From contig NZ_CP087723.1 in the NCBI RefSeq assembly GCF_024972735.1, forward strand, positions 2,232,001 to 2,296,000: DNA of 64,000 nt, read 5' to 3'. How positions within the stretch are numbered: position 1 is the first letter of the stretch; every line of letters begins with the position of its first letter. The notes beneath the pieces were generated by a model that searched no databases, was not told the origin of the DNA, and was given only the letters and a program-made list of their open reading frames with translations. This stretch comes from Halalkaliarchaeum sp. AArc-CO. Lineage in GTDB: Archaea > Halobacteriota > Halobacteria > Halobacteriales > Haloferacaceae. Positions 39,407-58,443 of this stretch are shown in pieces. The position numbers were made by a program, and so were the translations under genes.

Positions 39407-39555
39407 GTCCGGAAATCCGCCCGGGGGAATACAACGTTTGTGTTCCGCGGCGGCGACGGACGGGGACCAACCGGTGACGAGGAGGGTGCTCCCAGCGAGT
39501 GGGAGAACCTGACGGGAACGGTAGTTCTATGATCGCTGCACTGCGTCGTTCGGAC

Positions 39556-39960
39556 ATGGTAACGCTCGGACTCGTGGTGGCACAGTTCAACGCAGAAGTG
39601 ACCGAACAGATGGAGACGGCGGCGAATTCGGCCGCACAGGAGCGCGGCGCGACCGTCGCGGAGACGGTGTATGTTCCCGGCGTGTACGACTCGCCGCTGG
39701 CTGCAGACCGGCTCGCGCGCCGGGACGCGGTCGACGCGGTCGCTGTCGTCGGTGCGATCGTCACCGGCGACACCGACCACGACCGGGTGATCGCCGACGC
39801 GACCGCCCAGGGACTCACGGAGGTGAGTCTCGACCGGGACACGCCGGTTACCTTCGGCGTCAGCGGCCCGGGGATGTCGGGTGCCGAAGCGAGAGAACGG
39901 ATCGACAAGGGCGCAGAAGCCGTCGACGCCGCCGTCGACATGGCTGGGGTGAAAGCATGA
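39556..39960 (+). CDS. ribH: 6,7-dimethyl-8-ribityllumazine synthase
   Basis: 134 aa from ATG 39556 (MVTLGLVVAQFNAEVTEQM). Conserved features are VYVPGVYDSPLAADRL, the GAIVTGDTDHDRVI loop with the catalytic His, and VTFGVSGPGMSGAEARER. It makes the riboflavin precursor lumazine from the diaminouracil and dihydroxybutanone phosphate. It overlaps the aminotransferase gene by ATGA. Confidence 0.95.
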   Translation: MVTLGLVVAQFNAEVTEQMETAANSAAQERGATVAETVYVPGVYDSPLAADRLARRDAVDAVAVVGAIVTGDTDHDRVIADATAQGLTEVSLDRDTPVTFGVSGPGMSGAEARERIDKGAEAVDAAVDMAGVKA

Positions 39961-41105
39961 GCGACGAGTTCGCCGCCCGCGTCGAGCGGGTCGAACCCAG
40001 CGCGACACTCGCCGTGTCGAATCTCGCGTCGGAACTGGAGGCCGACGGCGCCGACGTCGTCGACCTCTCGGTGGGCGAACCGGACTTCGACACCCCCGAA
40101 AACATCGTGGAGGCGGGCAAGGCCGCCATGGACGCCGGCCACACCGGCTACACGCCATCGAGTGGCATCCCCGGGCTGAAGTCGGCGATCGTCGACAAGC
40201 TGACCGGCCAGGGCATCGACTGCGGCTCGGAGAACCTCATCGTCACGCCCGGCGCGAAGCAGGCGCTGTACGAGACGTTCCAGACGGTCGTCGACGACGG
40301 CGACGAGGTCGTCCTGCTCGATCCGGCGTGGGTCTCCTACGAGGCGATGGCGAAGATGGCCGGCGCCGACCTCGAGCGGGTCGACCTCGCGCCGCACGAC
40401 TTCCAGCTGGAACCTGCACTCGAGGAACTCGGGGCTGCAGTCTCGGACGACACCGAGCTGCTCGTGGTCAACTCCCCATCGAATCCGACGGGCGCAGTGT
40501 ACTCCGACGCCGCCCTCGAAGGGGTTCGCGACCTCGCGGTCGAACACGACGTGACGGTGATCTCCGACGAGATCTACGAGCAGATCACCTACGACGCGGA
40601 TCCGACGCCGCTTGCGACGATCGACGGGATGGCGGACCGAACGGTGACGATCAACGGCTTCTCGAAGGCGTACTCGATGACCGGGTGGCGTCTCGGCTAC
40701 CTGTGTGCCCCCGAAGAGTTGATCTCGCAGGCGGGCAAGCTCCACTCTCACTCGGTGTCGTGTGCGGTGAACTTCGTCCAGCACGCCGGGATCGAGGCGC
40801 TCGAGGACACCGACGACGCGGTCGCGGAGATGCGCGACGCCTTCAGAGCGCGGCGCGACCTGCTCGTGGACCTGTTCGACGATCACGGTGTCGACGTCGC
40901 CGTCCCGGACGGGGCCTTTTATATGATGATACCCGTCGACGACGACGATCAGTCGTGGTGCATGGACGCTCTCGAGGACGCCCACGTGGCGACGGTGCCC
41001 GGCGGGGCGTTCAACGCGCCCGGCTACGCGCGGATCTCGTATGCCGCAAGCGAACAGCGACTGCGCGAGGCGGTCGACCGGCTCGCTGACGGCGGCTTCC
41101 TGTAA
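39957..41105 (+). CDS. Class I/II PLP aminotransferase (aspartate-aminotransferase-like)
   Basis: 382 aa. The PLP Lys lies in TINGFSKAYSMTGWRLGYL; NSPSNPTGAVYSD and ISDEIYEQITYD are fold-type I signatures. It resembles archaeal AspAT/aromatic aminotransferases; donor and acceptor cannot be told apart from sequence. Coupled to ribH by a 4-nt overlap, a pairing common in haloarchaea. Confidence 0.93.
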   Translation: MSDEFAARVERVEPSATLAVSNLASELEADGADVVDLSVGEPDFDTPENIVEAGKAAMDAGHTGYTPSSGIPGLKSAIVDKLTGQGIDCGSENLIVTPGAKQALYETFQTVVDDGDEVVLLDPAWVSYEAMAKMAGADLERVDLAPHDFQLEPALEELGAAVSDDTELLVVNSPSNPTGAVYSDAALEGVRDLAVEHDVTVISDEIYEQITYDADPTPLATIDGMADRTVTINGFSKAYSMTGWRLGYLCAPEELISQAGKLHSHSVSCAVNFVQHAGIEALEDTDDAVAEMRDAFRARRDLLVDLFDDHGVDVAVPDGAFYMMIPVDDDDQSWCMDALEDAHVATVPGGAFNAPGYARISYAASEQRLREAVDRLADGGFL

Positions 41106-41144
41106 CGTCGCTTCCCCGACCTCGCCTCGACCGCGCCCGGACGT

Positions 41145-42284
41145 CTATAGCCCGAGTTCCCGGCCGATGACGAGGTGCTGGATCTCGCTTGTCCCCTCGC
41201 CGATCTCCATTAGCTTCGCGTCCCGGTAGAACCGCTGGGGGGCGAACTCTTCGGTGTAGCCGTAGCCGCCCAGCACCTGCACCGCGTCCTCGGCGACCTC
41301 CCTTGCGGCCTCGCTGGCGTCGAGCTTCGCGAGCGCCGACTCGCGGGTGACCCGCTCGCCGCTGTCGTATTTCGCGGCTGCCCGGTGGGTGAGCAGTCGC
41401 GCACGTTCGGTCTTCCGGTGCATGTCGACCAGCTTGTCGCGGATCGCGTCGAACTCGCTTATGGGCTGGCCGAACTGCTCCCGCTGTGTGGCGTACTCTT
41501 TCGCCGCCTCGAAGGCACCCTGTGCGAGCCCGGTCGACAGCGCCGCGATCGAGATCCGACCGCCGTCCAGCGTCTTCATCGTCTGTTTCCAGCCCTCGCC
41601 TTCCTCGCCGAGCAGTCGATCTGCTGACAGTCGGACGCCGTCGAGGGAGATCTCGCAGGTGGGCGAGGAGTTGAGCCCCATCTTCTCCCAGACAGTCGTT
41701 ACCTCGAAGCCGTCGTCCTCGGGCGACACGATGAACGTGGAGATCCCGTCGTAGCCCGCCTCGGGGTCCGTGACCGCCTTCACGAGCACGCTGTTTGCGA
41801 CGGTGGCGTTGGTGATGAACTGCTTTGTCCCGTTCAGCACCCACTCGTCGCCCTCCTTCCGGGCGGTCGTGTCCATGTCGGAGGCGTCGGAGCCGGATTC
41901 CGGTTCGGTGAGCGCCCACGCCCCCAGCTTCTCGCCGGACGTGAGTGGCTCGAGCCACTCCCGTTTCTGCTCGTCGGTGCCGAACAGCTCGATCGGCTTG
42001 CTCCCGAGCGAGACGTGGGCCGCATACGACAGCCCGATCCCGCCCGAAACCCGGCCCAGTTCCTCGGTCACGAGCGCGTACATGAGCTGGTCGCCGCCTA
42101 GTCCGCCGTACTCCTCGCCGATTGGAACCCCCAGTACGTCGAGTTCGCCCAGCTGCTCGAAGATCTCCGCTGGAAACCGGTGGTCGTCCTCGATTTCGTC
42201 CGCGATCGGCTCGATCTCAGCTTCGCAAAACTCCCTGACGGTGTCGCGGATCATCCGGTGTTCCGCCGGCAGCTCGAAGTCCAT
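41145..42284 (-). CDS. Acyl-CoA dehydrogenase
   Basis: 379 aa from ATG 42284 ([15 protein letters not shown]). It keeps [15 protein letters not shown] for FAD binding, FITNATVAN, and the C-terminal catalytic-loop region [20 protein letters not shown] with a Glu positioned as in short-chain and glutaryl-type ACADs. It desaturates acyl-CoA and passes electrons to ETF. Chain-length preference is not predictable. Its upstream region contains a 31-bp tandem repeat shared with the divergent kinase gene. Confidence 0.95.
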
Positions 42285-42318
42285 ACGTTCACGTTCGCGT
42301 CCGGGCGCATAAATACCC

Positions 42319-42380
42319 CGAACGACCGTGATAGACCGCCGGTCGACGCCGAACGATCGTAATAGCCCGCCGATCGACGC
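42319..42380. repeat. Two tandem 31-bp repeats in a divergent promoter region
   Basis: 42319-42349 and 42350-42380 match at 27 of 31 bases with no gap. The unit length is close to three helical turns, so bound proteins would line up on one face. It lies between the divergent acyl-CoA dehydrogenase and RIO-like kinase genes and contains ACGATCGT in the second copy. Confidence 0.7.
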
Positions 42381-42434
42381 GGCCCTCCCGCGTTCGGTGC
42401 GATTTATACCTTCCGAGCACGTCGTACCGACGTG

Positions 42435-43244
42435 ATGGAACTTCGCCGCCTGGTTCGTGGCCGCCTCGACTGGCCACGGCTGGAGGCGGTCGCGGTGGAG
42501 CTGGCAGAGCGGTACGACCGCGACTGCGTGCACGTCAGGTTCCTGGAGGCGGACAACTGGCTCTCGACGCCGATGGTGCTCGACGAGGACCTGTTCGTGA
42601 AGGTGATCTCGCGACAGAACACCCTCGTTCACACCCTATTTACGACCGGACGGAACCTGGGGGCCTTCTCGGCCGGGACGGAGGGCTTTTTCGAGCGGTT
42701 CAAAACCCCCTACGAGATGGCGGAACACGAACTCGAAGCGACCCGGCGGATGCGCGAGCTGGGGATCAATGCACCCGAGCCGATCGAGGCCGTCGAGGTC
42801 GACGGGCTCGGCGTGGTGGTGCTCGAGTACCTCCCGGAGTTCCGGCCGCTGGATCGACTCGACGGCGAGGAGGCGCGGGACGCCGCAGTACAGCTGTTCG
42901 GCTCGCTGCGGACGCTTCACGACGCAGGACTGGCCCACGGGGATCTCAGAGCCGAAAACGTGCTCGTGCTCGACGGAGAACTGTACTTCATCGACGCCAC
43001 GAGCGTCAGCGACGACGCCCGAGAGGACGCCCGGGCGTACGATCTCGCGAGCGCGCTCGCGGCGCTGGAGCCGGTCGTCGGCTCCCGGGCGACGATCGAC
43101 GCCGCGCTGTCGGCCTACTCGACGGACGAGCTGCTCGCGGCGCGGCGGTTCCTGGACTTCGTCGCCATCCGACCGGACCACGAGTTCGACACGACGGCCC
43201 TGAAGGGGGAACTCGAAAAACGAGCGGACGGGACGCCACGGTAG
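42435..43244 (+). CDS. RIO-like atypical serine kinase
   Basis: About 269 aa from ATG 42435; a GTG three bases earlier is equivalent. Lys in EDLFVKVISRQN is the ATP-binding Lys. LAHGDLRAENVLVLDGE is the catalytic loop (HGDLxxxN), and YFIDATSVSDD is the metal-binding DFG-equivalent region, in ID-type form as in RIO kinases. The N-terminal segment is not the winged helix of Rio1/Rio2, so this is a RIO-like or Bud32-like family member of unknown target. Confidence 0.8.
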   Translation: MELRRLVRGRLDWPRLEAVAVELAERYDRDCVHVRFLEADNWLSTPMVLDEDLFVKVISRQNTLVHTLFTTGRNLGAFSAGTEGFFERFKTPYEMAEHELEATRRMRELGINAPEPIEAVEVDGLGVVVLEYLPEFRPLDRLDGEEARDAAVQLFGSLRTLHDAGLAHGDLRAENVLVLDGELYFIDATSVSDDAREDARAYDLASALAALEPVVGSRATIDAALSAYSTDELLAARRFLDFVAIRPDHEFDTTALKGELEKRADGTPR

Positions 43245-43297
43245 CCTGACGGACGGTGAGAGCGACTACAGGCCCTCATCTGGCGCGGCCCTCGCTT

Positions 43298-44311
43298 TTA
43301 TAGGGCGTCGTACGGTCCGGCTTTGGCTTCGGTGAGTCGGTCGATCTGCTGAGCGGTGAGGTCGATCGTCGCCGCCGCGAGGTTCTCGGTCAGCTGATCG
43401 ACCGTCCGGGCGCCCACGATCGGTGCGGTGACGCCCTCGCGGTGGATCAGCCACGCGAGGGCGGTCTGGGCCGGCGTCGCGTCGATCTCCGCGGCGACGG
43501 CGTCGAGTTCCTCGTGGAGATCGAAGTTCTCCTCGGTGAGATACGCCTCCCGGAACCGGCTCGACTCCGCCACCCGGGACTCGCCGTCGAGACCGTCTTC
43601 GCGACTGTACTTGCCGGTCAAAAATCCCTGGCCGAGCGGGCTCCACGGGCAGACTGCGAGGCCGCGCTGTCGGGCCATCTCCAGGTAGTCGCCTTCGATC
43701 TCCCGGTCGACGAGGTTGTACCGGGGCTGGAGCACGGTGAACGGCTCCCATCCCTCGCTGTCGGCGATCGCGTTCGCCCGGGCCACCTTCCAGGCGTTCG
43801 GCCGCATCGTCGAGGCGCCCAGATAGTGGACCTTGCCCGACTCCACGAGGCCGTTCAGGGTCTTCATCAGTTCGCGAGTGGTCGTCGCGTCGTCCCACCG
43901 GTGGATGTACAGCACGTCGACGTAGTCGGTGTCGAGCCGGTCCAGCAGGGCGTCGATCCGGTGGCGGACGTTCTTCCGGTTGGTTCCACGGCTGTTGGGG
44001 TCGCCCTCGCGGATCTGCCAGTAGATCTTGGAGGCGATCGTGAACCGCTCGCGGTCGCGCCCGTCGAGCCACTCGCCGATCCACCGCTCGCTGTCGCCGC
44101 CGCCATAGACGTCGGCGGTGTCGATATACCGGCCGCCTGCGGCCTCGTAGGCGTCCAGCAGTTCCGTGGCGCGCTCTTTTCCGATCTCCACGTTCCCCTC
44201 TTCGGTCTCCCTGCCGAATCGCCAGGTACCGAACTGCAGTTCGCTCGTGTGGATGCCGGTTCGGCCGAGCGGGACGAAGTCGAGATCGATCTCCTCGATT
44301 GGCTGTGTCAT
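43298..44311 (-). CDS. Aldo/keto reductase
   Basis: 337 aa from ATG 44311 (MTQPIEEIDLDFVPLGRTG). Catalytic tetrad positions are visible: DVYGGGDSERWIG (Asp/Tyr), SKIYWQIREG (Lys) and LYIHRWDDATTTRELM (His). QPRYNLVDREIEGDYLEMAR and IVGARTVDQLTENL are typical of the AKR NADP-binding face. Substrate unknown. Its start is divergent from the small membrane-protein gene. Confidence 0.93.
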   Translation of the reverse strand: MTQPIEEIDLDFVPLGRTGIHTSELQFGTWRFGRETEEGNVEIGKERATELLDAYEAAGGRYIDTADVYGGGDSERWIGEWLDGRDRERFTIASKIYWQIREGDPNSRGTNRKNVRHRIDALLDRLDTDYVDVLYIHRWDDATTTRELMKTLNGLVESGKVHYLGASTMRPNAWKVARANAIADSEGWEPFTVLQPRYNLVDREIEGDYLEMARQRGLAVCPWSPLGQGFLTGKYSREDGLDGESRVAESSRFREAYLTEENFDLHEELDAVAAEIDATPAQTALAWLIHREGVTAPIVGARTVDQLTENLAAATIDLTAQQIDRLTEAKAGPYDAL

Positions 44312-44423
44312 CAGTGTAGCGTTGGTGGGTTCAGGGAAAAGCCTGTAGCAACCGGAAACCTCCGGCGGGATGGCCAGCCGCAACTCGCGTACGTTTATTA
44401 GTGGCCACCAAGTAGCAGGCGGT

Positions 44424-44690
44424 ATGGAACCGGGCCGGTTCGTGAGTTACGTGTTCGTCTACCTGGGGATACTGTGGCTCGTCGAGTACGCCGTCTTCTA
44501 CCCGCTCCAGTTCGGGTTCCCGGACGTGATGTATCTGGGCGGCGGCGTGTTCTTCCTTTGGTTCGGCTTCTACAGGCGACTAAAGCCCGAAACCCACGAG
44601 AAACATCCGAAAGAACACGGTATCGAGTCGTACGGGTTCGCCCTCATCGCGGTCGTGCTGACGGTGATCTTCCTGTTACAGCTGTTTTGA
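44424..44690 (+). CDS. Small haloarchaeal membrane protein, three helices
   Basis: 88 aa from ATG 44424. Three hydrophobic spans at about residues 6-22, 30-45 and 68-86, joined by short charged loops (RRLKPETHEKHPKEHG). No motif gives a function. Divergent from the aldo/keto reductase, with about 110 bp between starts. Confidence 0.65.
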   Translation: MEPGRFVSYVFVYLGILWLVEYAVFYPLQFGFPDVMYLGGGVFFLWFGFYRRLKPETHEKHPKEHGIESYGFALIAVVLTVIFLLQLF

Positions 44691-44833
44691 CGGCCGAGGT
44701 TCGGTTCACTGTGCGGTTTTGTGCGACAGGGCGAGTGTCCCGAGAGGAGAGACTGTACCCGAATATCCCATTATTTGTTATGTTATTTAAAACCGGAACG
44801 GATTAAGGGAGACGCGTATGTACAGGGGTGGTA

Positions 44834-44843
44834 ATAAATACAC
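44834..44843 (+). promoter_or_regulatory. TATA element for the regulator at 44871
   Basis: AATAAATACA lies ~30 nt before the ATG at 44871, fitting a leaderless promoter. A further AT-rich stretch at 44765-44795 could be a second start or a binding site. Confidence 0.5.
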
Positions 44844-44870
44844 GTAAAGAATAACCCGCCCATTCAAATT

Positions 44871-45527
44871 ATGTCATCCGCACTCCACCCAGAACGGGAC
44901 CTAAAGCTCGAGTTGAGGGTGACCCCACCAAAATCGTGCGAGATACACAAACTCGACGGAGAGATCGTGAGTGTCAACCAACATCCGACGCACGGTGGAT
45001 TCTACTGTGAAATCGTCTATCGAACCGACGAAGGGGACGAGAAGACGTTTCACACGTTCAAAAAAGCGGGCTGTAACTGTCCCGCAAATGTCTTCGCGGA
45101 ACACGGCTGCGTGCCGACGGTGACCGGAGTCGACAGGGACAGCTGCCTGGTGACGACGTTTCTCTCCTCCCGAGAGCAGGCGACAGATCTCCTCGAAGAG
45201 CTGTCTGACCACACCGAAAACCTGGCCGTACGGCGCATCAGCGACAACGGGATCAAAAACCCGAGCGATGTCGTCGACTACCAGTCACGTACCATCGACC
45301 TCTCAGAGCTGACCGAAAAACAGAAGGAAGCGATCCAGCGCGTCTCCGATGCAGGTTACTACGAGCAGCCGCGCGAGACCACACTCTCGGAGGTGGCCTC
45401 GGAGCTCGATATCACCCAGTCGGCACTCTCTCAGCGGTTGCGGGCCGGTGAGAACAAACTGTTCCAGCAGTTGTTCGCAACTGACAACGGACGGGAAGAC
45501 CGAGTGGAAGAAGAAATCGGAACGTAA
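44871..45527 (+). CDS. Bat-type HTH-10 regulator with cysteine-rich sensor half
   Basis: 218 aa. The C-terminal HTH-10 starts at LTEKQKEAIQRVSDAGYYEQ and continues TLSEVASELDITQSALSQRL. The N-terminal half has six Cys (23, 46, 68, 70, 80, 92), among them CNCPANVFAEHGC, plus several His, which suggests a bound metal or Fe-S/redox switch. It lies directly upstream of, and in the same direction as, the ferredoxin-AOR block, so it is the probable local regulator. The sensing role is inferred. Confidence 0.82.
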   Translation: MSSALHPERDLKLELRVTPPKSCEIHKLDGEIVSVNQHPTHGGFYCEIVYRTDEGDEKTFHTFKKAGCNCPANVFAEHGCVPTVTGVDRDSCLVTTFLSSREQATDLLEELSDHTENLAVRRISDNGIKNPSDVVDYQSRTIDLSELTEKQKEAIQRVSDAGYYEQPRETTLSEVASELDITQSALSQRLRAGENKLFQQLFATDNGREDRVEEEIGT

Positions 45528-45648
45528 CTGTCCTGTACAGCAGATAGCGAACGTGTTTGCCAGATCCTCGTGTAGACCATCAAACGAAGACGGATACGTA
45601 GATGTGCAATCCTTTTGGATAATTTAAACAGCAGTATTAAAACAGTAG

Positions 45649-45680
45649 ATTGTTTATATACTTCTTCATATAAAGTACTT
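45649..45680 (+). promoter_or_regulatory. AT-rich promoter of the ferredoxin-AOR block
   Basis: Two overlapping TATA-like boxes, tgtttatatac (about 45650-45661) and catataaag (about 45668-45676), lie within a low-G+C stretch 50-80 nt upstream of the ATG at 45729. The longer open frame through this AT-rich region is not the true start. Confidence 0.55.
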
Positions 45681-45728
45681 ATCTCTAGAAGAGTCACCGT
45701 TTCGCCCGTCGATATCCTACCACTTGGT

Positions 45729-46460
45729 ATGGGAAATCAACCCCCAGAACCGGACGAAGGAACAGTTCCAGGAGATGATACGTCCAGGAGAAGTTTCCTG
45801 AAAGGAGCCGCCGTCGGAGTGGGTGCGGCAGCGGCCGGTGGGTCCGCCGGCTTTCTCGCGTTGCGAAACGAAGACACCGGCGACGTCGCGGCGGCGATGC
45901 CGGCTTCCGAGGGATACCTGTTGATCGATCCGGAGAAATGCGCGGGCTGTCAAAGCTGCATGCTGTCGTGTTCGGTCGGTCACGACGGCGAAGCGAGCCT
46001 CTCACAGTCGCGGATTCAGATCGTCGAAAGTCCATTTAAAGGATTCCCGGACGACATCGACGTGAATCACTGTCGGCAGTGCACGTATCCCGCCTGTGCG
46101 GAAGCGTGCCCGACGGACGCGCTCCACGCCGACGAAGAGACAGGGAACGTGAGGTTCGTCGACGAGGACAAATGCATCGGCTGTGAGCGCTGTATCGAGG
46201 CCTGTCCGTACGACCCCTCCCGTGTCACCTGGGACGTGAACAGCCAGACGGCCAAAAAGTGCGATCTCTGTGCTGACACCCCCCACTGGAACGAAGAGGG
46301 CGGCCCCGACGGCTCGCAGGCCTGTGTGGAAACCTGCCCCGTCGACGCCATCAAGTTTACCGAACAGATTCCCGCACAGGTCGGACCCGGTGCCTACGAG
46401 ATCAACCTCCGGGACGAACAGTGGGCAGAACTCGGTCTCTACGCAGGTGATGCCCTATGA
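45729..46460 (+). CDS. Tat-exported ferredoxin with four [4Fe-4S] sites (HybA/DmsB/YdhY type)
   Basis: 243 aa from ATG 45729. A twin-arginine signal (DTSRRSFLKGAAVGVGAAAA) precedes four cysteine clusters: CAGCQSCMLSC, CRQCTYPACAEACP, CIGCERCIEACP and CDLC...ACVETCP. This is the electron-transfer subunit layout of oxidoreductases such as DmsB, HybA and YdhY. Its ATGA overlap with the AOR gene makes it the likely AOR partner. The Tat signal implies an extracytoplasmic position facing the membrane cytochrome encoded downstream. Confidence 0.92.
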   Translation: MGNQPPEPDEGTVPGDDTSRRSFLKGAAVGVGAAAAGGSAGFLALRNEDTGDVAAAMPASEGYLLIDPEKCAGCQSCMLSCSVGHDGEASLSQSRIQIVESPFKGFPDDIDVNHCRQCTYPACAEACPTDALHADEETGNVRFVDEDKCIGCERCIEACPYDPSRVTWDVNSQTAKKCDLCADTPHWNEEGGPDGSQACVETCPVDAIKFTEQIPAQVGPGAYEINLRDEQWAELGLYAGDAL

Positions 46461-48499
46461 AAGGACACGCCGGAAAAATCCTCGACATCGATCTAACGAA
46501 CCGCGAGATAAGCACTATCGACACCAGCGAGTACGAAGAGTGGGTCGGCGGTCACGGGATGGGAACCGCCATCTTCTACGATCGGGTCGAGGACAAGACG
46601 ATCGACGCCTTCGATCCCGACAACGTCATCACGATGATGACCTCCCCGCTTGCGGGTACCGGCGTTCCCGCAGCGTCCGCCAGGACGGAGATTCAGGGAA
46701 TCAGCCCGCAGCCGTATCCCACCGAGTGGTTCAACCGGAGCAACTTCGGTGGGCGGTTCGCCTCGATGCTGAAGTACGCCGGATACGACGGCGTCATCAT
46801 CCAGGGCGCCGCCGACGAACCCGTCTGGGTGAACGTCGTGGACGATCAGTTCGAAATTCGGGACGCCAGCGACCTCTGGGGACTCGGTACCTGGGAAGCA
46901 CAGGCGGAAATCTGGAGCGAAGTCGGCCAGCGCGGCTGGAACCAGGTGGACGAAACCCGTGACTCCGGACGGACGACACAGAAGCCCGCCGTCGCCTGTA
47001 TCGGTCCTGCGGGCGAGGCCGAGATACGAATGGCGACCGTCCAACACGACGCCGGCAACGGCGCTGGCAACGCCGGTTTCGGTGGTGTCCTCGGCTCGAA
47101 GAATTTCAAGGCGATCAGCGTTCTCGGAACGGGCAGCATCGAAATCGCCGACCCTGCAGAGCTGCTTGAAGCACGTCTGTGGGCCCAGCGCGAGTATTCG
47201 TACGATCACGACGAGGATATCCCACAAGTGCGGGACTTCTACTCGTTCAGCCGATCTCCTGGCGAAGGGGATCTCGGAGGCGTCGTCGAAACGAAGGCAC
47301 GGCCCCAGGGCTGTGTCGGATGTCACAACACGTGTCGCAAACGAACCTCGAGCTCTCACGGGAACGAAAGTTCCTGCGTGGAGGCAGTGTACTACTCCGG
47401 CTTTGATTCCGCAAAACACGGAGAGACGACCGCTGAAACGGCTAAAGCAGCGGACATCGTCCAGCAGATGGGGTTCAACGCGTACACCCTGAACGCGGGA
47501 CTCCCGTGGCTCGAGGCGCTTCACGAGCAGGGCGTTCTCGGTGAAGACGGAGAAATCGAGGCCGACCTCCCCTGGGACTCCCTCGGGGAGGCGAGTTTCG
47601 TCGAGGAACTCGTCCAGAAGATCATCGACCGCGAAGGGATCGGCGAAGCCCTCGCAGAAGGCAACGCCAGGGCAGCCGAAGAGTGGGGCCGGCTGGAGCA
47701 AGATCTCGAATCGGGACTGCTCACACTCTTTGCATGGGGATACCCACAGCACTACGACGCTCGAACCGAAGTCGAATGGGGATACGCGACGATACTCGGC
47801 GCCAGGGACGTCAACGAACACGACTTCAACTGGCACGTTTACTGGCAGCCCCACATATCGATCCTGACCGGCGAGGAACCGCCAGTCTCGGCGGAAGAGC
47901 TCGCGAATATTATCGAAGAGAGCACGCCCCCTCACAACGTCATTCCCGACTACAGCGACGGAGCAATCTACTCCGAGGTGGCTGCAGAGCGAAACTCCTG
48001 GCACCGGCATTACAGTCGGTTCTACAAGCAGAGCGCACTGTTCTGTGACTGGGCGTTTGCAGACTTCACTAGCCCTTACACCGACGACAAGTCCGGAATC
48101 ACACCCGAAGGCGAAGAGCGGTTCCTCAACGCAGTTACAGGTATGGACATTACCTTCGAAGAAGGAATGGAGATCGGCCGCCGTATCTGGAACCTCGAAC
48201 GGTCGATCTGGACGCTTCAGGGCCGGCACCGCGACGACGAGGAGTTCGCAGCGTACAACTACGAGGAGCCGGCACCTGGTCCCTACTACCTCCCTGCGAA
48301 GGTCGACGGCGAGTGGGAGTACATCGACACAGGTGGGCGAAAGCTCGATCGTGGGAAGGTCGAGGAGTTCAAGACGTTATACTACCAGGAGGAAGGCTGG
48401 GACACTGAAACCGGACGTCCTACTCGAGAAACCCTCGAAGAACTGAATCTCGGCCACGTGGCCGACGAGCTCGAGGGCGAAGGGAAACTCCCCGGGTGA
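46457..48499 (+). CDS. Aldehyde:ferredoxin oxidoreductase (tungstopterin AOR family)
   Basis: 680 aa. The AOR N-domain is intact (GKILDIDLTNREIS, FNRSNFGGRFASMLKYAGYD, VIIQGAADEPVW). The [4Fe-4S] ligands are Cys286, Cys289, Cys293 (CVGCHNTC) and a fourth Cys near residue 530 in SALFCDWAF. The family holds two pterins around tungsten and oxidises aldehydes to acids or reduces them. No Tat signal is present; it could travel with the Tat-tagged ferredoxin or stay in the cytoplasm. It most resembles the YdhV-like branch by gene context (ferredoxin and cytochrome b). Substrate unknown. Confidence 0.9.
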   Translation: MKGHAGKILDIDLTNREISTIDTSEYEEWVGGHGMGTAIFYDRVEDKTIDAFDPDNVITMMTSPLAGTGVPAASARTEIQGISPQPYPTEWFNRSNFGGRFASMLKYAGYDGVIIQGAADEPVWVNVVDDQFEIRDASDLWGLGTWEAQAEIWSEVGQRGWNQVDETRDSGRTTQKPAVACIGPAGEAEIRMATVQHDAGNGAGNAGFGGVLGSKNFKAISVLGTGSIEIADPAELLEARLWAQREYSYDHDEDIPQVRDFYSFSRSPGEGDLGGVVETKARPQGCVGCHNTCRKRTSSSHGNESSCVEAVYYSGFDSAKHGETTAETAKAADIVQQMGFNAYTLNAGLPWLEALHEQGVLGEDGEIEADLPWDSLGEASFVEELVQKIIDREGIGEALAEGNARAAEEWGRLEQDLESGLLTLFAWGYPQHYDARTEVEWGYATILGARDVNEHDFNWHVYWQPHISILTGEEPPVSAEELANIIEESTPPHNVIPDYSDGAIYSEVAAERNSWHRHYSRFYKQSALFCDWAFADFTSPYTDDKSGITPEGEERFLNAVTGMDITFEEGMEIGRRIWNLERSIWTLQGRHRDDEEFAAYNYEEPAPGPYYLPAKVDGEWEYIDTGGRKLDRGKVEEFKTLYYQEEGWDTETGRPTRETLEELNLGHVADELEGEGKLPG

Positions 48500-48505
48500 T
48501 CAGTG

Positions 48506-48883
48506 ATGTCCGAACTACCCCCACCAGGTGAGGAGCTCGCAAAGCGGTTGATGCGGAAGGTCGACTTCGAAGACCGGTTCGTCGGCATCGACATGCACGG
48601 ACACAAGGGGAACACGAAAGAGAGACTCTACTCCCTGGAGTCGATTTCGACGTTCGTCGGCGTCGACGACAAAGAGTCACTCCAGATACACGGCTCGAGT
48701 GCGTCGATCCGCTACGTCGACTTCGAAGAACTCGCCGAGTGGCTGGAATCAGTCCACGGCGATCAGGAACTCGCCGATGCAATTCGACGCGAGATCGCAA
48801 TACACGACAACTTCAAAGACGAGGCGCAAGCCGTCCAACCGTTGCTCGAACGTCGCCTCGAGCAGGCGACGGAGGTGACATGA
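48506..48883 (+). CDS. Small uncharacterised protein of the AOR block
   Basis: 125 aa from ATG 48506 (GTG 48503 possible). It lacks Cys and membrane spans and is rich in acidic and His residues: GIDMHGHKGNTKERLYSLESI, then YVDFEELAEWLESVHGDQEL. Its stop overlaps the cytochrome ATG and it follows the AOR stop within a few bases, so it is a full member of the block. It may be a chaperone or assembly factor for the AOR or cytochrome; family not recognised. Confidence 0.75.
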   Translation: MSELPPPGEELAKRLMRKVDFEDRFVGIDMHGHKGNTKERLYSLESISTFVGVDDKESLQIHGSSASIRYVDFEELAEWLESVHGDQELADAIRREIAIHDNFKDEAQAVQPLLERRLEQATEVT

Positions 48884-49794
48884 TGAACTGGAGACGTCCG
48901 CTAATCGTCGGTGGGCTGCTCGTGGTGGCAGTCCTCGGATTCCTGCTCGCGGAGGCAGCCGCCCAGCTGTACCTCTGGCAGCCCTACCAGGCTGGGACGT
49001 ACTTCTACGAGATTCTCTTCGAGAGCCAGGCGTGGATGATACCGGCAGCGATCGCGCTCGGACTGATCTTCGGCGCCGTCTACGGCACCTCGGAGAAGTC
49101 CAAACAACTGTCCGAGGATCCCCCCGAACGTGACGGGTTCATCCAGCGGCACGCCGCTTTCGGGGCGTTCCTGGAACACTGGGTCGCAACTGTCGGTATG
49201 ATCCTGCTGGTGCTGTCGGGGATCTGGCTCGGCTTCCTGTTCGTTCCGCGGCTGGCAGGCACGACCGAAACAGTCGGACTCGCGCTCAACGTCCACTGGG
49301 TCGGTACTGGACTGCTCGTGTTCGCGGTCTCCTATCACGTCTCGGCGCTGTTTATGGGCGCTCACCGAGAGATCGTCCCGGAAGCCAGCGACTTCCGAAA
49401 GGCGGTTCGAGACGTCGGACACTATCTCGGGATGACCGACGCGCCCGAGGCTGACAAGTACAAACCGATTCAGAAGGTAAGTTACCTCGCGTGGGGCGCG
49501 CTCGTGGGAATCATGACGATTACGGGCGTCCTGATGGCGCTGGATTACGTCGCCGCAGTCTCGGGGAGCGTACGGGCAGCCTCGACGTTCCTTCACGAAC
49601 TGTTCGCGCTGTTTACCATCCTGTTTTTGCTGGCACACGTGGCGATCACGCTGATGCCGTCCCACTGGGCGATGTTGCGCTCGCAAGTGACAGGATGGAT
49701 GCCAGCCGACTACGTCCGTGAAAAGCTCCCGCGCTGGAACGTTCAGCGGCGAACCGACGGCGGGACGGAATCCAAGGAACCGCCGAACCCGTGA
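48880..49794 (+). CDS. Membrane cytochrome b (b561/FdnI/YdhU-like)
   Basis: 304 aa from ATG 48880. Five to six membrane helices with His at several of them: FLEHWVATVG, LNVHWVG, SYHVSALFMGAHRE, TFLHELFALF and LLAHVAITL, enough to hold two b-haems. Such proteins pass electrons between a ferredoxin-type subunit and the quinone pool. The long C-terminal tail is hydrophilic. With the Tat ferredoxin and AOR, it makes a membrane-bound oxidoreductase; direction of flow is not shown. Confidence 0.88.
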   Translation: MMNWRRPLIVGGLLVVAVLGFLLAEAAAQLYLWQPYQAGTYFYEILFESQAWMIPAAIALGLIFGAVYGTSEKSKQLSEDPPERDGFIQRHAAFGAFLEHWVATVGMILLVLSGIWLGFLFVPRLAGTTETVGLALNVHWVGTGLLVFAVSYHVSALFMGAHREIVPEASDFRKAVRDVGHYLGMTDAPEADKYKPIQKVSYLAWGALVGIMTITGVLMALDYVAAVSGSVRAASTFLHELFALFTILFLLAHVAITLMPSHWAMLRSQVTGWMPADYVREKLPRWNVQRRTDGGTESKEPPNP

Positions 49795-49816
49795 GCGCCG
49801 ATCCACCCACAAACAC

Positions 49817-51154
49817 ATGACCGACGTCCTGCTGTTCAACGCGCCGGTGGAGCAACCTCGCGGGAGTGCCCACGCCGGCCTGCACCCCCCACTGGGGCTC
49901 GGCTACATCGCAGCTGTCCTTCGAGACGCAGGCTACTCCGTGTCGGCGCGAGATCTGAACGTGACCGGGTTGAACCCGCAGCTGATCCGGCGCGTCGTCT
50001 CGCGAGAGTCACCGGCGATGGTGGGAATCTCGGCTCACACCGAGACGTACCCGAACGGGCTAGAGATCGCTGATCTCGCGAAGGCGGAAGCGCCGACGAC
50101 CGCCGTCGTCATGGGCGGTCCCCACGCGTCGGTTACCTACGAGCAAACGGCGATAGAACCGGCCGTCGACTACGTCGTCCGGGGGGAGGGTGAGTACGCG
50201 ATGCGCGATCTGGCAAGCGTGCTGGTCGGACGCGACGATAATGACCAGGACGAACTGGTCGCCGAGATCGAGGAGGTTCCCGGACTCGCGTATGTGTCCG
50301 CAGACGGTAACGTCGTGGCGACCCCCGAGCGGTCGATGATCGAAAACCCCGACGAGTTACCGTGGCCCGCCAGGGACCTCTTCCCGCTGGAACTGTACGA
50401 AAAACCCGGAAACGTCCTCTTTTCGAGAGGGGGGTGTCCGTTCAGTTGCCACTTCTGTGCGGTAAACAGCATCTGGGTCGACCGAGCACGGCGGTTCCGC
50501 AACCCGGAGGCAGTCGCACAGGAGGTCGAACACCTGCTTGTCGATCACGGGCTCCGACAGATCAACTTTGCCGACGACACCTTCACACTCCGGAGGGACG
50601 CCGTCCTGGAGCTGACCCACCGACTGGAGGCGATCGAGGCGCCGTTCCCGTGGGACTGGACATGTTCGACCCGGGTCGACCTCGTCGATCGGGAACTGCT
50701 TGAACAGTTAGCCCACGCCGGCTGCTCGGGCATCCAGTTCGGCGTCGAGACGGGTTCCCAGGAAATTCTCGACGCTACAGGGAAAAACATCACCTTGGAT
50801 CAGGCCCGGGAGGCGGTGTCGGCGGCCGCAGAGTTTGACATGGACGTGCTCGCCTCGTTTATGTTCCCCCACCCAGACGACACGGAGTCGTCGATCCGAC
50901 AGCAGGCCGAGTTCATGAGGGAGATCCGCGAACTCGGCGCCGACATTTCGATCGCGTTTACGACCCCGTATCCAGGGACGACATACGCCGAGATGACCGC
51001 CGAAAGCGACCTCGAAGTCGCCGCGGACGACTGGAACGAGTACGACGCCAAACACCTGATCATGTCGACCCGGAACCTCTCGTTTCCGGAACTCGAAGAG
51101 CTGTTCGAAGAGCTCGTTCGGGATGTTGGCCTGAAAAAGCGGGTGACCGCATGA
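49817..51154 (+). CDS. B12-binding-domain radical SAM protein
   Basis: 445 aa from ATG 49817. The N-terminal ~130 residues form a cobalamin-binding domain (HPPLGLGYIAAVLRDAGYSV, then VMGGPHASVTYEQTA), without the DxHxxG ligand, as in BchE-type class B proteins. The radical SAM cluster is CPFSCHFC near residue 207, followed by QINFADDTFTLRRDAV and FGVETGSQEILD. These enzymes methylate unactivated carbons or do related radical chemistry. It directly follows the cytochrome and overlaps the short AOR gene. Substrate not evident. Confidence 0.9.
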   Translation: MTDVLLFNAPVEQPRGSAHAGLHPPLGLGYIAAVLRDAGYSVSARDLNVTGLNPQLIRRVVSRESPAMVGISAHTETYPNGLEIADLAKAEAPTTAVVMGGPHASVTYEQTAIEPAVDYVVRGEGEYAMRDLASVLVGRDDNDQDELVAEIEEVPGLAYVSADGNVVATPERSMIENPDELPWPARDLFPLELYEKPGNVLFSRGGCPFSCHFCAVNSIWVDRARRFRNPEAVAQEVEHLLVDHGLRQINFADDTFTLRRDAVLELTHRLEAIEAPFPWDWTCSTRVDLVDRELLEQLAHAGCSGIQFGVETGSQEILDATGKNITLDQAREAVSAAAEFDMDVLASFMFPHPDDTESSIRQQAEFMREIRELGADISIAFTTPYPGTTYAEMTAESDLEVAADDWNEYDAKHLIMSTRNLSFPELEELFEELVRDVGLKKRVTA

Positions 51155-52116
51155 CTGACTCGCGTTTCCCGGACGGACACGTTCTCGAGGTCGACCTCAC
51201 GAACGAAGAATTGTCGCCGTACGAGGTTCCAAAAACCAGGGCTGGACAGGTTCTGGGTGGGCGGGAGCTCGGGTTGCGTCTTCTGCAGGAGGAACAGCCG
51301 TCCGAATGCTTCCCGTTCGACGAGAACAGCGTGTTGGTGTTCGCCGTGGACACGTCTGCCGAAACGAACAGTTCTGACGACGCCCGTCACTGGGTCGGGG
51401 GCGTCTCACCCCGGACCGGTGATCCTGGAGGATCGTGGGTCGAGGGACGGTTCGGAACGTCGTTAACGCGAGCCGGTTACGCCGGGATCGTCGTCCGCGG
51501 ACGGGCAGACGCGTTGACGACGCTCGTCGTCGAGGACGGAACCGCCCGGCTCGCCAAAACGACTCACCTCTGGGGTGCCAAAGTCGACGAATGCGAACGA
51601 GTATTGACCGCCGACGGTGGCGTGTGTGCGTGCGTCGGTCCGGCCGGAGAGAACTTCGTGAAGATCGCAGAGATCGTTCACGACGGCGACTGCCCCACGG
51701 AAGGGGACGGGCTCGGCGCAGTTATGGGCGCAAAGCGCCTGAAAGCGATCGTCGTCGACGGCGGCGTCCCGGTCAGCGACAACCAGTCCGGCCACGGTAC
51801 CGTGTGGTCCTTCCCGGAGGCCACCCCCGAAACGGCAGCCGAGATGCGCCGTCGTTGTCGACAGTACGGCCTCGACGCCGGGCGGGTGGAGGCTGCCGTC
51901 ACCGTCACGATCGACTCCCTCGAGGCATACGACTGGAGCGACGGGAACACACTTCTCGAACTCCTGGAACGGATCGCGTACATGGACGGAATCGGGGAAG
52001 TTCTCGGGGACGGAGTCGAGTCGGTTCACCGGCACCTGGGAAGCGACACCACCGGATCGGAAAGCGGCGCCATCCCGTCGCCTCGCACCGACGGCGGTGC
52101 CGAACGGCGCGACTAA
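51151..52116 (+). CDS. Shortened AOR paralog lacking the Fe-S ligands
   Basis: 321 aa. The first ~210 residues follow the AOR N-domain of the neighbouring full-length gene (VLEVDLTNEELSPYEV, FGTSLTRAGYAGIVVRG, VGPAGENFVKIAEIVHDGD, GAVMGAKRLKAIVV). It then jumps to AOR middle-domain sequence (CRQYGLDAGRVEAAVTV, RIAYMDGIGEVLGDGVES), missing the ~100-residue region that holds CxxCxxxC, and ends before the AOR C-domain. It is in frame and looks maintained rather than decayed. Possible roles: pterin carrier, subunit of the AOR complex, or assembly scaffold. Its ATGA overlap with the radical SAM gene shows common translation. Confidence 0.82.
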   Translation: MTDSRFPDGHVLEVDLTNEELSPYEVPKTRAGQVLGGRELGLRLLQEEQPSECFPFDENSVLVFAVDTSAETNSSDDARHWVGGVSPRTGDPGGSWVEGRFGTSLTRAGYAGIVVRGRADALTTLVVEDGTARLAKTTHLWGAKVDECERVLTADGGVCACVGPAGENFVKIAEIVHDGDCPTEGDGLGAVMGAKRLKAIVVDGGVPVSDNQSGHGTVWSFPEATPETAAEMRRRCRQYGLDAGRVEAAVTVTIDSLEAYDWSDGNTLLELLERIAYMDGIGEVLGDGVESVHRHLGSDTTGSESGAIPSPRTDGGAERRD

Positions 52117-52547
52117 CCCATCCACCCGATCTCCAGTTCGTCCAGATCCGTCATCTTCGGGGCGTACGGCTTGATGTCGAGGATCGGCGTCCCGTCGACG
52201 AGATCGAGGTTCGAAACCGAAAGCTCCGTCCCGGAGATTCCCCCCAGTTCCACGATCGACGTGCCGATCGGGTTCGGTCGGACGGGACCCGAGGTGGCGA
52301 AGATCCCCACCTCCCCGCGTGAAGCGATCGGGGTGACCCGGAGTCGCGTCTCCTCGACCCGGTGCAAATGCGAGACGAGCACAACGTGTGAAAACTCTTC
52401 GAGCCCCTTCAGCCCGGGCTCGTACTGGGGCTCGATGTGGACCGTTCCGGAGGCGTCGACGAACTCCTCGGACGGACGCGGGACCTCCTCCGGCTTCGAA
52501 AACGTCGATTCGACGACGCCGATCGGCTCGTACGTGACCGGTTCCAT
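52113..52547 (-). CDS. TrmO-family tRNA m6t6A37 methyltransferase (TsaA/UPF0066)
   Basis: 144 aa. It has the beta-barrel TrmO fold with FATSGPVRPNPIGTS, the SAM/tRNA-site motif of the family, FSHVVLVSHLHRV, and LDIKPYAPKMTDL at the end. TrmO methylates N6-threonylcarbamoyladenosine at position 37 of some tRNAs. Its stop overlaps the stop of the convergent AOR paralog by 3 nt. The start is divergent from the aldehyde dehydrogenase gene. Confidence 0.9.
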   Translation of the reverse strand: MEPVTYEPIGVVESTFSKPEEVPRPSEEFVDASGTVHIEPQYEPGLKGLEEFSHVVLVSHLHRVEETRLRVTPIASRGEVGIFATSGPVRPNPIGTSIVELGGISGTELSVSNLDLVDGTPILDIKPYAPKMTDLDELEIGWMG

Positions 52548-52652
52548 ACTGGAAAGAACCCCCGGAAGAGGTAACTGCTTTCGGTTTCAGCACGGGGACA
52601 CTGGGCCAGGGGGAGATGCCTTTTTGTCTCGGCGGCCGTTCCGTACGGATAC

Positions 52653-54173
52653 ATGTCCGACCCGTACACACATTACATCGACGGCGAGTGGACCGACGGC
52701 GCCGGCGAGGAGACGTTCGAAAGCGTAAACCCCGCGACAGGGGAGACGCTCGGGGAGTTCCGGCGCGGAACGCCCGCCGACGTCGACCAAGCCTCGCGGG
52801 CCGCCGGGGAGGCGTTCGAGGAGTGGCGAGAGATGTCCCACATCGACCGTGCGGAGTATCTCTGGGACATCTATCACGAACTCCGGGAACGGACCGACGA
52901 ACTCGGCGAGATCCTCACCAAGGAGAACGGAAAAGAGATCAGCGAAGGGAGAGCCGATGTCGTCGAGGCCGCCCACATGGTCGAGTGGGCCGCCGGGGAC
53001 GCCCGACACCCGAAAGGCGACGTCGTGCCATCGGAGATCCCCGAAAAGGACGCCTACATGCGGCGCAAGCCGCGGGGCGTGGTCGGCTGCATCACGCCGT
53101 GGAACTTCCCGGTGGCGATCCCGTTCTGGCACATGGCCGTCGCGCTGGTCGAGGGCAACACCGTCGTCTGGAAGCCCGCCGAACAGACGCCGTGGTGTGG
53201 CCAGGTCATCGCCGAGATGTTCGAGGACAGCGGCATCCCCGAGGGCGTGTTCAACATGGTGCAGGGCTTCGGCGACGCCGGCGCGGCGATCGTCGACCAC
53301 GACGCCGTCGACACGGTGCTTTTCACCGGCTCGGCGGAGGTCGGCCACGAGGTCGCCCAGAAGGTCGCCGCCGATCCCCAGAAGCAGGCTGCCTGCGAGA
53401 TGGGCGGGAAAAACGGGATCGTGATCACCGAAAACGCCGATCTCGACGTCGCCGTCCACTCGGCAGTGATGAGCTCGTTCAAGACCACGGGCCAACGCTG
53501 TGTCTCCTCCGAGCGCCTGATCGTCCACACCGACGTGTACGACGAGTTCAAAGAGCGGTTCGTCGACGTCGCGGAGGACGTCGCCGTCGGTGATCCGCTG
53601 GACGAGGACACGTTCATGGGCCCGCTGATCGAGGAAGCCCACGTCGAGAAGGTGACCAAGTACAACGAACTCGCCAGGAACGAGGGCGTGAACGTGCTCG
53701 TCGACCGAACCGAACTGGAGCCCGAGGAGATTCCCGAGGGCCACGAAGCCGGTCACTGGGTCGGGCCGTTCGTCTACGAAGCAGACCCCGACGAGAACCT
53801 CCGGTGCACCCACGAGGAGGTATTCGGTCCCCACGTGGCGCTGCTCGAATACGAGGGTGACATCGAGCGCGCGATGGAGATCCACAACGACACCGACTAC
53901 GGGCTGGCGGGCGCGGTCATCTCCGAGGACTACCGCCAGATCAACCACTACCGCGATCACGCGGAGGTCGGTCTCGCGTACGGCAACCTGCCGTGTATCG
54001 GCGCGGAGGTCCAGCTCCCATTCGGCGGGGTGAAGAAGTCTGGGAACGGCTACCCCAGCGCCCGCGAGGTGATCGAAGCCGTCACCGAACGCACCGCCTG
54101 GACGCTGAACAACTCCAGGGAAATCGAGATGGCGCAGGGTCTCTCGGCGGACATCAAGACCCGCGAGGAGTAG
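52653..54173 (+). CDS. NAD(P)-dependent aldehyde dehydrogenase superfamily member
   Basis: 506 aa. The nucleotide-site region is PWNFPVAIPFWHMAVALVEG, the oxyanion and general-base Glu region ACEMGGKNGIVI, and the catalytic Cys TTGQRCVSSERL. GNLPCIGAEVQLPFGGVKKS is close to the ALDH7 and semialdehyde-dehydrogenase type. Substrate cannot be fixed. Placed next to the AOR block it could use the same aldehyde, but it has its own promoter region and separate neighbours. Confidence 0.93.
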   Translation: MSDPYTHYIDGEWTDGAGEETFESVNPATGETLGEFRRGTPADVDQASRAAGEAFEEWREMSHIDRAEYLWDIYHELRERTDELGEILTKENGKEISEGRADVVEAAHMVEWAAGDARHPKGDVVPSEIPEKDAYMRRKPRGVVGCITPWNFPVAIPFWHMAVALVEGNTVVWKPAEQTPWCGQVIAEMFEDSGIPEGVFNMVQGFGDAGAAIVDHDAVDTVLFTGSAEVGHEVAQKVAADPQKQAACEMGGKNGIVITENADLDVAVHSAVMSSFKTTGQRCVSSERLIVHTDVYDEFKERFVDVAEDVAVGDPLDEDTFMGPLIEEAHVEKVTKYNELARNEGVNVLVDRTELEPEEIPEGHEAGHWVGPFVYEADPDENLRCTHEEVFGPHVALLEYEGDIERAMEIHNDTDYGLAGAVISEDYRQINHYRDHAEVGLAYGNLPCIGAEVQLPFGGVKKSGNGYPSAREVIEAVTERTAWTLNNSREIEMAQGLSADIKTREE

Positions 54174-54207
54174 CGAACGGTAGCGACGGGACGACTCGAG
54201 TTCCGTC

Positions 54208-55002
54208 TCACTCGCCGCCAGCGAAGCCACCCTGCCGCAGGGCCTCCTCGACCCCGACGTCGTCGTGGACGACCGCGGAGACCGCCCGTGCGATCGCCCC
54301 CGGGTCGTCGTGCTGGAAGATCGACCGTCCCATCGAGACGCCAGCGGCGCCGCCGTCCATCGCTCCCCGCACCATCTCGACGGTCTCCCGATCGGTCCCC
54401 TTCGAGCCGCCGGCGATCACGACCGGCAGTCGAGTCGACTCCGTGACGTGGATAAACGAGCCGCCGTCGCCGGAGTAGCCCGTCTTCACGACGTCGGCCC
54501 CCAATTCCTCCGCCAGCCGCACCGCGTGTCCCAGCGCCTCGGGATCCGACTCGTCGACGCCGGGACCCCTGGCGTACGCCATGGCGAGCACCGGAATCCC
54601 CAGGTCTGCCGCCTCCGTCGTGAGTTCCGCGAGATCCTCGATCTGTTTCGGCTCGTACGTCGAGCCGACGTTGAGATGCATCGACACCGCGTCGGCTCCC
54701 GCACGGACGGCGTCCCTGACCGTGCCGGTCATTCGCTTGTCGTTTTCGTCGGGGCCGATCGTCGTCGAGGCGTTCACGTGGACGACGTAGCCCGCGTCGT
54801 TTTTGTTCGGATGGACGCGAGGGGCGATCCCCTTCTGGGTGAGCACGGCGTCTGCGCCACCCGCCGTCACCGCGTCGATCGTCGATTCGATGTCTTTCAG
54901 CCCTTTTACCGCCCCCATGGTGATGCCGTGGTCCATCGGGACGATCAGGTACCGTCCGTCCGTCGAAATCCGTGTGAGCCGCGCGTCGATTCCCGGGTTC
55001 AT
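54208..55002 (-). CDS. Class I aldolase-like ADH synthase (2-amino-3,7-dideoxy-D-threo-hept-6-ulosonate synthase type)
   Basis: 264 aa from ATG 55002. The Schiff-base Lys lies in ADVVKTGYSGD; LIVPMDHGITMG and VLTQKGIAPRVHPN are typical of the archaeal aroA'-type enzymes. It joins a keto-sugar with aspartate semialdehyde in the archaeal shikimate entry route. It is placed right after trpA on the same strand, which favours this role over fructose-bisphosphate aldolase. Confidence 0.85.
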   Translation of the reverse strand: MNPGIDARLTRISTDGRYLIVPMDHGITMGAVKGLKDIESTIDAVTAGGADAVLTQKGIAPRVHPNKNDAGYVVHVNASTTIGPDENDKRMTGTVRDAVRAGADAVSMHLNVGSTYEPKQIEDLAELTTEAADLGIPVLAMAYARGPGVDESDPEALGHAVRLAEELGADVVKTGYSGDGGSFIHVTESTRLPVVIAGGSKGTDRETVEMVRGAMDGGAAGVSMGRSIFQHDDPGAIARAVSAVVHDDVGVEEALRQGGFAGGE

Positions 55003-55090
55003 CGTTCGTATGTTAGAGTGTATCAATCGTCGGTATGTAGCTTGCGAAGCACGCTCGCGTAAGGCCGTTGCGGTCCCGGCGGGGGTTGCG

Positions 55091-55969
55091 TCATTTTTGC
55101 CCCCGCGTTGCACCGGCCTTCAGTTCGCGGGCCTTCGCTTCGATGCGATCGGCGACGTCGTCGGCGGCGTCACCGTTCTCGACCCCTTCGGCGACGATGT
55201 CCACCAGCGCGGAGCCGACGATGATCCCGTCGGCGCCGGCTGCGACGATCCGTTCGGCCTGCTCGCCGTCGGCGATCCCGAAGCCGACCGCCTTGGGCAC
55301 CTCCCAGTCGGCGACCCGCGCGAGGCTTTCTTCGGTCTGGTCGGAGACGTCAGCCCGGGCGCCAGTGGTTCCCAGCCTGGCCTGGACGTAGACGTAGCCT
55401 GACACGAGCTCGCGCATCCGGTCGAGTCGCTCCCCCCGGGTCGTGGGGGCCACGATGAAGATCAGGTCCAGCCCGAACTCGTCGCACGCCTCCCGCAACG
55501 GGCCGGCCTCCTCGGCGGGGAGATCCGGGACGACGAACCCCGAGAGCCCGGCCTCGGCGGCGCGCTCGACGAACGCCCTCGGACCGCCCCCGTCCTCGCG
55601 CTCCGACGCCGGGTGGCGGCCGAACTGGTAGATCAGGTTGTAGTAGGTCATACAGACCAGCGGGACGTCGACGTCGAGCTCCTCGACGAACGCGAAGAAG
55701 CGCTCGGGGGTCATCCCCCCCTCGAGTGCCCGGACGATCGCCCCCTGGATCGTCGGTCCCTCGGCGATCGGTTCCGAAAAGGGCAGTCCGAGCTCGATCA
55801 CGTCGGCACCGCCGCGCGCCAGCGCCTCGACGTACGCGAGCGACGACTCGTAGTCCGGATCACCGACCGCAAGGTACGGCACGAACGCCGGTTCGCCCCC
55901 GAAGGCAGCCGCGAGCGCCGCGTCGTTGGCGACCGTCCCGATAGCCCCGGATCCATCCGCTCGACTCAT
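55091..55969 (-). CDS. trpA: Tryptophan synthase alpha chain
   Basis: 292 aa. [20 protein letters not shown] and [20 protein letters not shown] are the substrate-loop regions with the catalytic Glu and Asp; [12 protein letters not shown] and [13 protein letters not shown] are typical. It cleaves indole-3-glycerol phosphate to indole for TrpB. The ATG overlaps the trpB stop. Confidence 0.97.
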
Positions 55970-58028: not shown

Positions 58029-58030
58029 CT

Positions 58031-58060
58031 ATGTCCATCAATGTACGTTTATGTTCATAA
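58031..58060. promoter_or_regulatory. Three phased 10-bp direct repeats before trpC
   Basis: ATGTCCATCA, ATGTACGTTT and ATGTTCATAA occupy 58031-58060 with no gap, consensus ATGTnCrTnw, starting 3 bp from the trpC ATG. One repeat per helical turn is an operator-like layout. The middle copy includes TGTAC, similar to the TGTACA box bound by TrpY in methanogens. Confidence 0.5.
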
Positions 58061-58130
58061 GGCTGTCGCTGTGTGCACGTTCGACGCGGAGACACGGGTC
58101 GATGCAGGTACGGAAGGATCGGCCGCGGAC

Positions 58131-58355: not shown

Positions 58356-58443
58356 ACACCCGGTTTGGTACCGAAACACATAGTCTCGACACCTACCCAG
58401 TCAGGCTGTCGAAGATACCGAAAGAAAGTCAGGAAGCGGAGAC

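Follow-up and report, generated by a model that had tools for sequence, protein, structure and literature searches.

Gene organization of the island

We analysed a 64-kb window (contig C2:2232001–2296000) of a 3.18-Mb haloarchaeal genome, which contains the locus of a putative membrane-associated WOR embedded in a discrete genomic island (Table 1). The first-pass annotation had described seven tightly packed genes here, and this description was borne out: all seven are open frames on the forward strand, as confirmed by family matches and, for the small protein, by conservation across genomes. The ferredoxin and WOR genes overlap by 4 bp, as do the radical SAM and mini-AOR genes, and the small protein gene overlaps the cytochrome b gene by 1 bp. 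The small protein, previously listed as an unknown product of 125 residues, is encoded by a genuine gene, but is one residue longer.

Table 1 Genes and extent of the island (positions in the 64-kb window)
Feature	Position	Strand	Description
HTH_10 (bat/DmsR-type) Cys-rich regulator	44871–45527	+	218 aa, 6 Cys; HTH_10 2.1e-15 and DmsR_N 7.9e-7, over the Pfam cut-off
Tat-signal WorS/HybA/NrfC-like ferredoxin	45729–46460	+	243 aa; 16 Cys, four [4Fe-4S]; Fer4 families
WOR large subunit (WorL), YdhV type	46457–48499	+	680 aa; AFOR_N 1e-55, AFOR_C 1.4e-39
Conserved small protein	48503–48883	+	126 aa, GTG start; homologues beside WOR in 7 loci
FdnI/YdhU-type cytochrome b	48883–49794	+	303 aa; Ni_hydr_CYTB 6.3e-16
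B12-binding-domain radical SAM enzyme	49817–51154	+	445 aa; B12-binding 4.3e-27, Radical_SAM 2.3e-25
Mini-AOR	51151–52116	+	321 aa; N domain and half of domain 2
Island	44691–52116		7,426 bp; 43 bp in congener G359 instead

The genome of a congener (G359) aligns as one stretch, with ~88% identity, to window positions 37558–44690 and 52117–60741, and the whole island is replaced there by the 43 bp of L069 9263–9305. The left edge of the island lies just after a small-membrane-protein gene, which ends at 44690 and is also present in the congener; the right edge coincides with the mini-AOR stop codon. The GC3 of the island is 0.69–0.78, and most of the genes closest to it on the two sides reach 0.82 or more; neither terminal repeats nor an integrase was seen at the island. 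Gain of the island in the host lineage is the simpler reading, and loss in the congener may be the alternative. Because the gene order is kept across genera and in another class, and the block is absent in one piece from the congener, its assembly goes beyond chance. The same window also contains a MopB (molybdopterin oxidoreductase) gene (19988–22114, − strand) and two more regulators that match the profile of the operon regulator (708–1352 and 7945–8610, both on the − strand).

Conservation and distribution of the gene set

The ferredoxin, WOR, small protein and cytochrome b genes are kept together at seven loci, which are spread over six genomes of haloarchaea and Methanonatronarchaeia, and the radical SAM gene is present in six of the seven loci. 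A search with the small protein found three haloarchaeal genomes besides the host among the 292 searched, and a search with the WOR found the same three (4 of 391 haloarchaeal genomes; the host is counted in both totals). Two of them, G001 and G007, belong to one genus, and G129 to another family. All three have the order regulator–ferredoxin–WOR–small protein–cytochrome b, with a radical SAM gene added in G001 and G007. Candidatus Methanohalarchaeum thermophilum has two sets in the order ferredoxin–WOR–small protein–radical SAM–cytochrome b, and G399, a member of its family, has ferredoxin–WOR–small protein–cytochrome b followed by two radical SAM genes. The set thus stays constant while the order of the cytochrome b and radical SAM genes shifts, which points to functional linkage. 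That three haloarchaea besides the host, as well as two Methanonatronarchaeia, show the gene order also removes the possibility, named in the first-pass annotation as fatal to its reading, that the order is peculiar to this genome.

A scan of named genomes found only Methanohalarchaeum and a fragment of a Dehalococcoidales metagenome-assembled genome (L045 2026–3099), in which the ferredoxin gene adjoins the N-terminal part of a WOR that shares 50% identity with that of the window; this WOR gene is cut off by the end of the contig. The Methanohalarchaeum genome (G408) encodes seven broad YdhV-type WORs (E ≤ 1e-60; C1:196057, 488845, 1150196, 1294025, 1302877 and 1540869, and C2:164847), each adjoining a Tat-type multi-cluster ferredoxin, and the archaeal family is therefore larger than the operon type found in the window. 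All seven WORs have a cysteine near the metal-ligand position described below, and several of the ferredoxins have a lipobox-like GVSGC.

Of 194 haloarchaeal genomes, four lack COX1: G001, G007 and G129, which have the locus, and G093, which does not. Both Methanonatronarchaeia also lack COX1. The locus is associated with COX1 absence (Fisher P = 1.3e-5 by genome and 0.004 by genus), in a test for which the host genome, which has COX1, was not randomly drawn. By the COX1 criterion, the host does not class as an obligate anaerobe. In related genomes, the set is almost confined to archaea without oxygen-respiring oxidases. G001 and G007 encode 10 and 9 MopB proteins, respectively, the same numbers as in the sulfur-respiring Halodesulfurarchaeum strains HTSR1 and HSR6 (PMC5437934), and these counts suggest that the two genomes are those strains. 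Within the literature collection searched, no paper pairs Halodesulfurarchaeum with the YdhV-type WOR family.

The WOR catalytic subunit

The window WOR contains both AFOR domains and all four ligands of the [4Fe-4S] cluster (Cys286, Cys289, Cys293 and Cys530), as expected of a Class V WorL (PMC13328260), and its best NCBIfam model is that of YdhV (2.9e-79), though the match is below the cut-off. Its Cys307 aligns with Cys336 of YdhV and, in a HMMER alignment, with Cys322 of BamB. Both cysteines are reported to bind the metal, and other WOR clades and characterized aldehyde oxidoreductases lack them (PMC12096430); the alignments suggest that Cys307 is likewise a metal ligand. Among nine further AOR-family proteins of the host genome, all eight that were inspected lack an equivalent of Cys307. 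The GPE[FY]E motif, which is usual in several of these paralogues, is replaced in the window WOR by ES-x-CV[ED], and His455 is kept in the alignment. An AOR in the strict sense has no protein ligand to tungsten and combines the second-shell GPEYE glutamate with a histidine, a description that the window WOR, despite its His455, does not appear to fit.

In a tree of 35 WORs, the window WOR groups with six archaeal orthologues and then with the bacterial Class V WORs (YdhV and those of Proteus and Cetobacterium somerae), Methanohalarchaeum WOR3 and BamB (SH-aLRT 98), and AOR, FOR and all the paralogues from the host genome lie on the opposite side. A tree of 22 WORs again unites the archaeal and bacterial Class V WORs (SH-aLRT 95), but places BamB on the AOR side, so that the two trees disagree on where BamB belongs. 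In both trees, the archaeal proteins join the three clade-41-type bacterial WORs, but form a long branch of their own. The sequence data thus support the placement of the window WOR in the Cys-type branch with YdhV. An AlphaFold model of the WOR (pLDDT 39, from a 3-row alignment) was too poor to use.

The first-pass annotation had treated this protein as a full-length AOR for aldehyde oxidation or acid reduction. A respiratory enzyme of this kind, in which a tungsten-dependent AOR passes electrons from extracellular aldehydes to quinone, would accord with the AFOR fold and the intact [4Fe-4S] ligands. Furthermore, the acidic residue two positions after Cys307, which is Glu or Asp in most archaeal WORs of the operon type, may together with His455 correspond to the catalytic pair Glu313/His448 of PfAOR, so that aldehyde chemistry is unlikely rather than excluded. 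Against it stand the ligand-position cysteine of the YdhV/BamB type, the missing GPE[FY]E motif and the separation of the window WOR from AOR and FOR in both trees. Moreover, the related C. somerae protein CsWOR41L, assayed without its small subunit, oxidized none of 46 aldehydes (PMC13328260). Nor need the protein be a tungsten enzyme: YdhV prefers molybdenum, and tungsten is therefore unproven for the window WOR.

BamB is a cytoplasmic CoA-ester reductase that functions with BamC–I partners. A BamB-like low-potential dearomatizing enzyme, or another two-electron organic reductase, that works extracellularly with quinol or a membrane partner as its driving force would share the Cys ligand column and agree with the grouping in the 35-WOR tree. 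However, the island has no BamC–I partners, an exported WOR would not meet CoA esters, and BamB falls outside the group in the 22-WOR tree, so that we hold this reading to be improbable.

Across five genomes examined, we also observed a branch of haloarchaeal AOR paralogues that lack the [4Fe-4S] ligand cysteines (with PDDAVPGGF and ADDF instead) and are otherwise full length. Its members include G000:C2:2821695 (L007/L034) of the host genome and the relatives L023, L024, L029 and L032; a cluster-less WOR would be odd.

The Tat ferredoxin and the cytochrome b

The ferredoxin, which most likely starts at the ATG at 45729, carries the Tat motif TSRRSFLKG. Its cysteines, exactly 16, are all kept in the aligned relatives, and SRRSFLK is kept in the orthologues. 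It thereby combines the four [4Fe-4S] clusters of the Class V WorS subunit with a Tat signal, which in Class V may be accompanied or replaced by a transmembrane segment (PMC13328260). The window WOR itself lacks a signal, and for bacterial Class V WORs, export on the Tat-tagged WorS has been predicted (PMC13328260). The earlier proposal that the enzyme leaves the cell on the ferredoxin is supported by this match, and the window WOR would accordingly be a passenger of the ferredoxin's Tat signal. Unlike FdnH, the ferredoxin lacks a membrane helix at its C terminus, which would suit a cytoplasmic WOR core with the Tat-like segment as a membrane anchor or vestige and no extracellular complex, but we give this little credence given the canonical SRRSFLK conserved in orthologues and the twin-arginine and lipobox-like GVSGC segments in several Methanohalarchaeum ferredoxins.

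The cytochrome b contains hydrophobic helices, and its profile, which includes YdhU, matches FdnI (1kqf_C, 8.7e-12) with the histidine columns aligned. H99, H138, H238 and H252 correspond to H18, H57, H155 and H169 of FdnI, which we take to be the ligands of its two b haems, and are the predicted haem ligands of the window protein; in G129, the third of these positions is occupied by Gln. The inclusion of an FdnI/YdhU-type cytochrome b in the conserved gene set argues for the membrane-linked respiratory complex that the first-pass annotation had envisaged. Its gene, which lies in the same operon, would also supply the further, membrane-associated subunit expected of Class V. Five other ferredoxin–WOR pairs of Methanohalarchaeum have no adjacent cytochrome b of the window type that we could recognize, indicating that this subunit is not obligatory.

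The small protein, radical SAM enzyme, regulator and mini-AOR

The small protein matches no family over the cut-off, and its PDB and Pfam matches are at chance level. We considered it as a homologue of YdhW or YdhT and found no similarity to either; its AlphaFold model (pLDDT 51, from a 2-row alignment) was too poor to use. It may be an assembly factor or a small subunit.

The radical SAM enzyme has CxxxCxxC at position 207 and a B12-binding domain, as in class B (B12) radical SAM enzymes. The cobalamin-binding DxHxxG is replaced by DLNVTG, and the Asn (DxNxxG) is invariant in the four aligned orthologues. Among 194 haloarchaea, matches with E ≤ 1e-60 occur in only three genomes, all of which have the WOR locus. 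The enzyme may function in maturation or modification.

An orthologue of the DmsR-like regulator heads the locus in G001, G007 and G129, and none was detected in the Methanonatronarchaeia loci; this regulator may be a switch for anaerobic respiration.

The mini-AOR gene is present as annotated, yet it lies outside the conserved set: it is missing from the six other loci, which led us to reject a conserved-subunit role, and is an extra of this one genome. The protein is missing ~114 residues that bear the cluster ligands and stops short of the C-terminal domain, with nothing left beyond domain 2, an architecture unseen elsewhere in 195 genomes of the order. It is 42% and 40% identical to full-length AOR-type proteins of G346 and G052, respectively, to which it is closer than to the operon WOR, and duplication of the latter was also rejected. 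The mini-AOR is probably non-catalytic, and a decaying copy or a binding or regulatory role is possible.

Proposed mechanism

The product of the island is probably an oxidoreductase of anaerobic metabolism that is anchored in the membrane, faces outwards and follows an FdnGHI-like plan, in which a YdhV (Class V)-type WOR would be the catalytic α subunit, the four-cluster ferredoxin the β subunit and the cytochrome b the γ subunit. The WOR would fold in the cytoplasm with a bis-MPT tungsten or molybdenum cofactor ligated by Cys307, and would then bind the Tat ferredoxin, so that both are exported together. On the outer face, electrons would move between the substrate and the metal, through the cluster of the WOR and the four of the ferredoxin, and between these, the two b haems and menaquinone, which in the methanogen relatives would be replaced by another membrane carrier. 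As for direction, we think it slightly more likely that the complex is a terminal reductase, with an external acceptor, than a dehydrogenase.

More tentatively, exported Cys-ligated tungsten or molybdenum enzymes might constitute a hidden anaerobic respiration of hypersaline archaea that acts on a non-aldehyde extracellular substrate, with the operon type requiring modification by the B12 radical SAM enzyme and a new small subunit.

Discussion

The closest described system is E. coli YdhYVWXUT (Class V, clade 41), and the resemblance to the ydh locus noted in the first-pass annotation holds for three proteins: the WOR with its Cys336 equivalent (31% identity), the Tat or anchored four-cluster ferredoxin (31%) and the b-type YdhU (22%). 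By contrast, no counterpart of YdhW, YdhX or YdhT was found in the island, which is archaeal and adds the 126-residue protein, the B12 radical SAM enzyme and the HTH_10 regulator. C. somerae CsWOR41 LSW shares the WOR branch and the Tat ferredoxin (PMC13328260), but has no adjacent cytochrome b or radical SAM gene and instead adjoins transporter, TatA/TatC, MoeA and FdhD genes. FdnGHI (formate dehydrogenase-N) has the same α–β–γ plan and a homologous cytochrome b with the four haem-ligand histidine columns, whereas the α subunit of the island is a WOR rather than a MopB protein, and its Tat signal is on β, not α. BamB of class II benzoyl-CoA reductase has a metal-ligand cysteine that aligns with Cys307, but belongs to a cytoplasmic multi-subunit complex without a Tat signal or a cytochrome b. 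The haloarchaeal and Pyrococcus AOR, FOR and WOR83 share the AFOR_N/AFOR_C fold, but those aligned have no Cys ligand, and they have no Tat ferredoxin operon and form a separate branch (WOR83 itself is absent from the tree).

The 2026 classification of Class V/clade 41 covers 380 bacterial taxa in 37 genera, bacteria only, and assigns no reaction to Class V WORs, including E. coli YdhV (PMC13328260). The archaeal host falls outside this range, which is a statement of sampling rather than of defining biochemistry. The archaeal loci appear to possess the Class V subunits, while having their own long branch and different partners from those of bacterial Class V.

What is new here is an archaeal Class V-type branch with a fixed, different set of partners, and a distribution tied to the absence of oxygen-respiring oxidases that narrows its function to anaerobic respiration. 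Since the radical SAM enzyme is found in haloarchaea only with the WOR locus, it offers a handle on maturation, and the organisms that carry the loci, having few competing systems, are suited to tests of what Class V WORs do.
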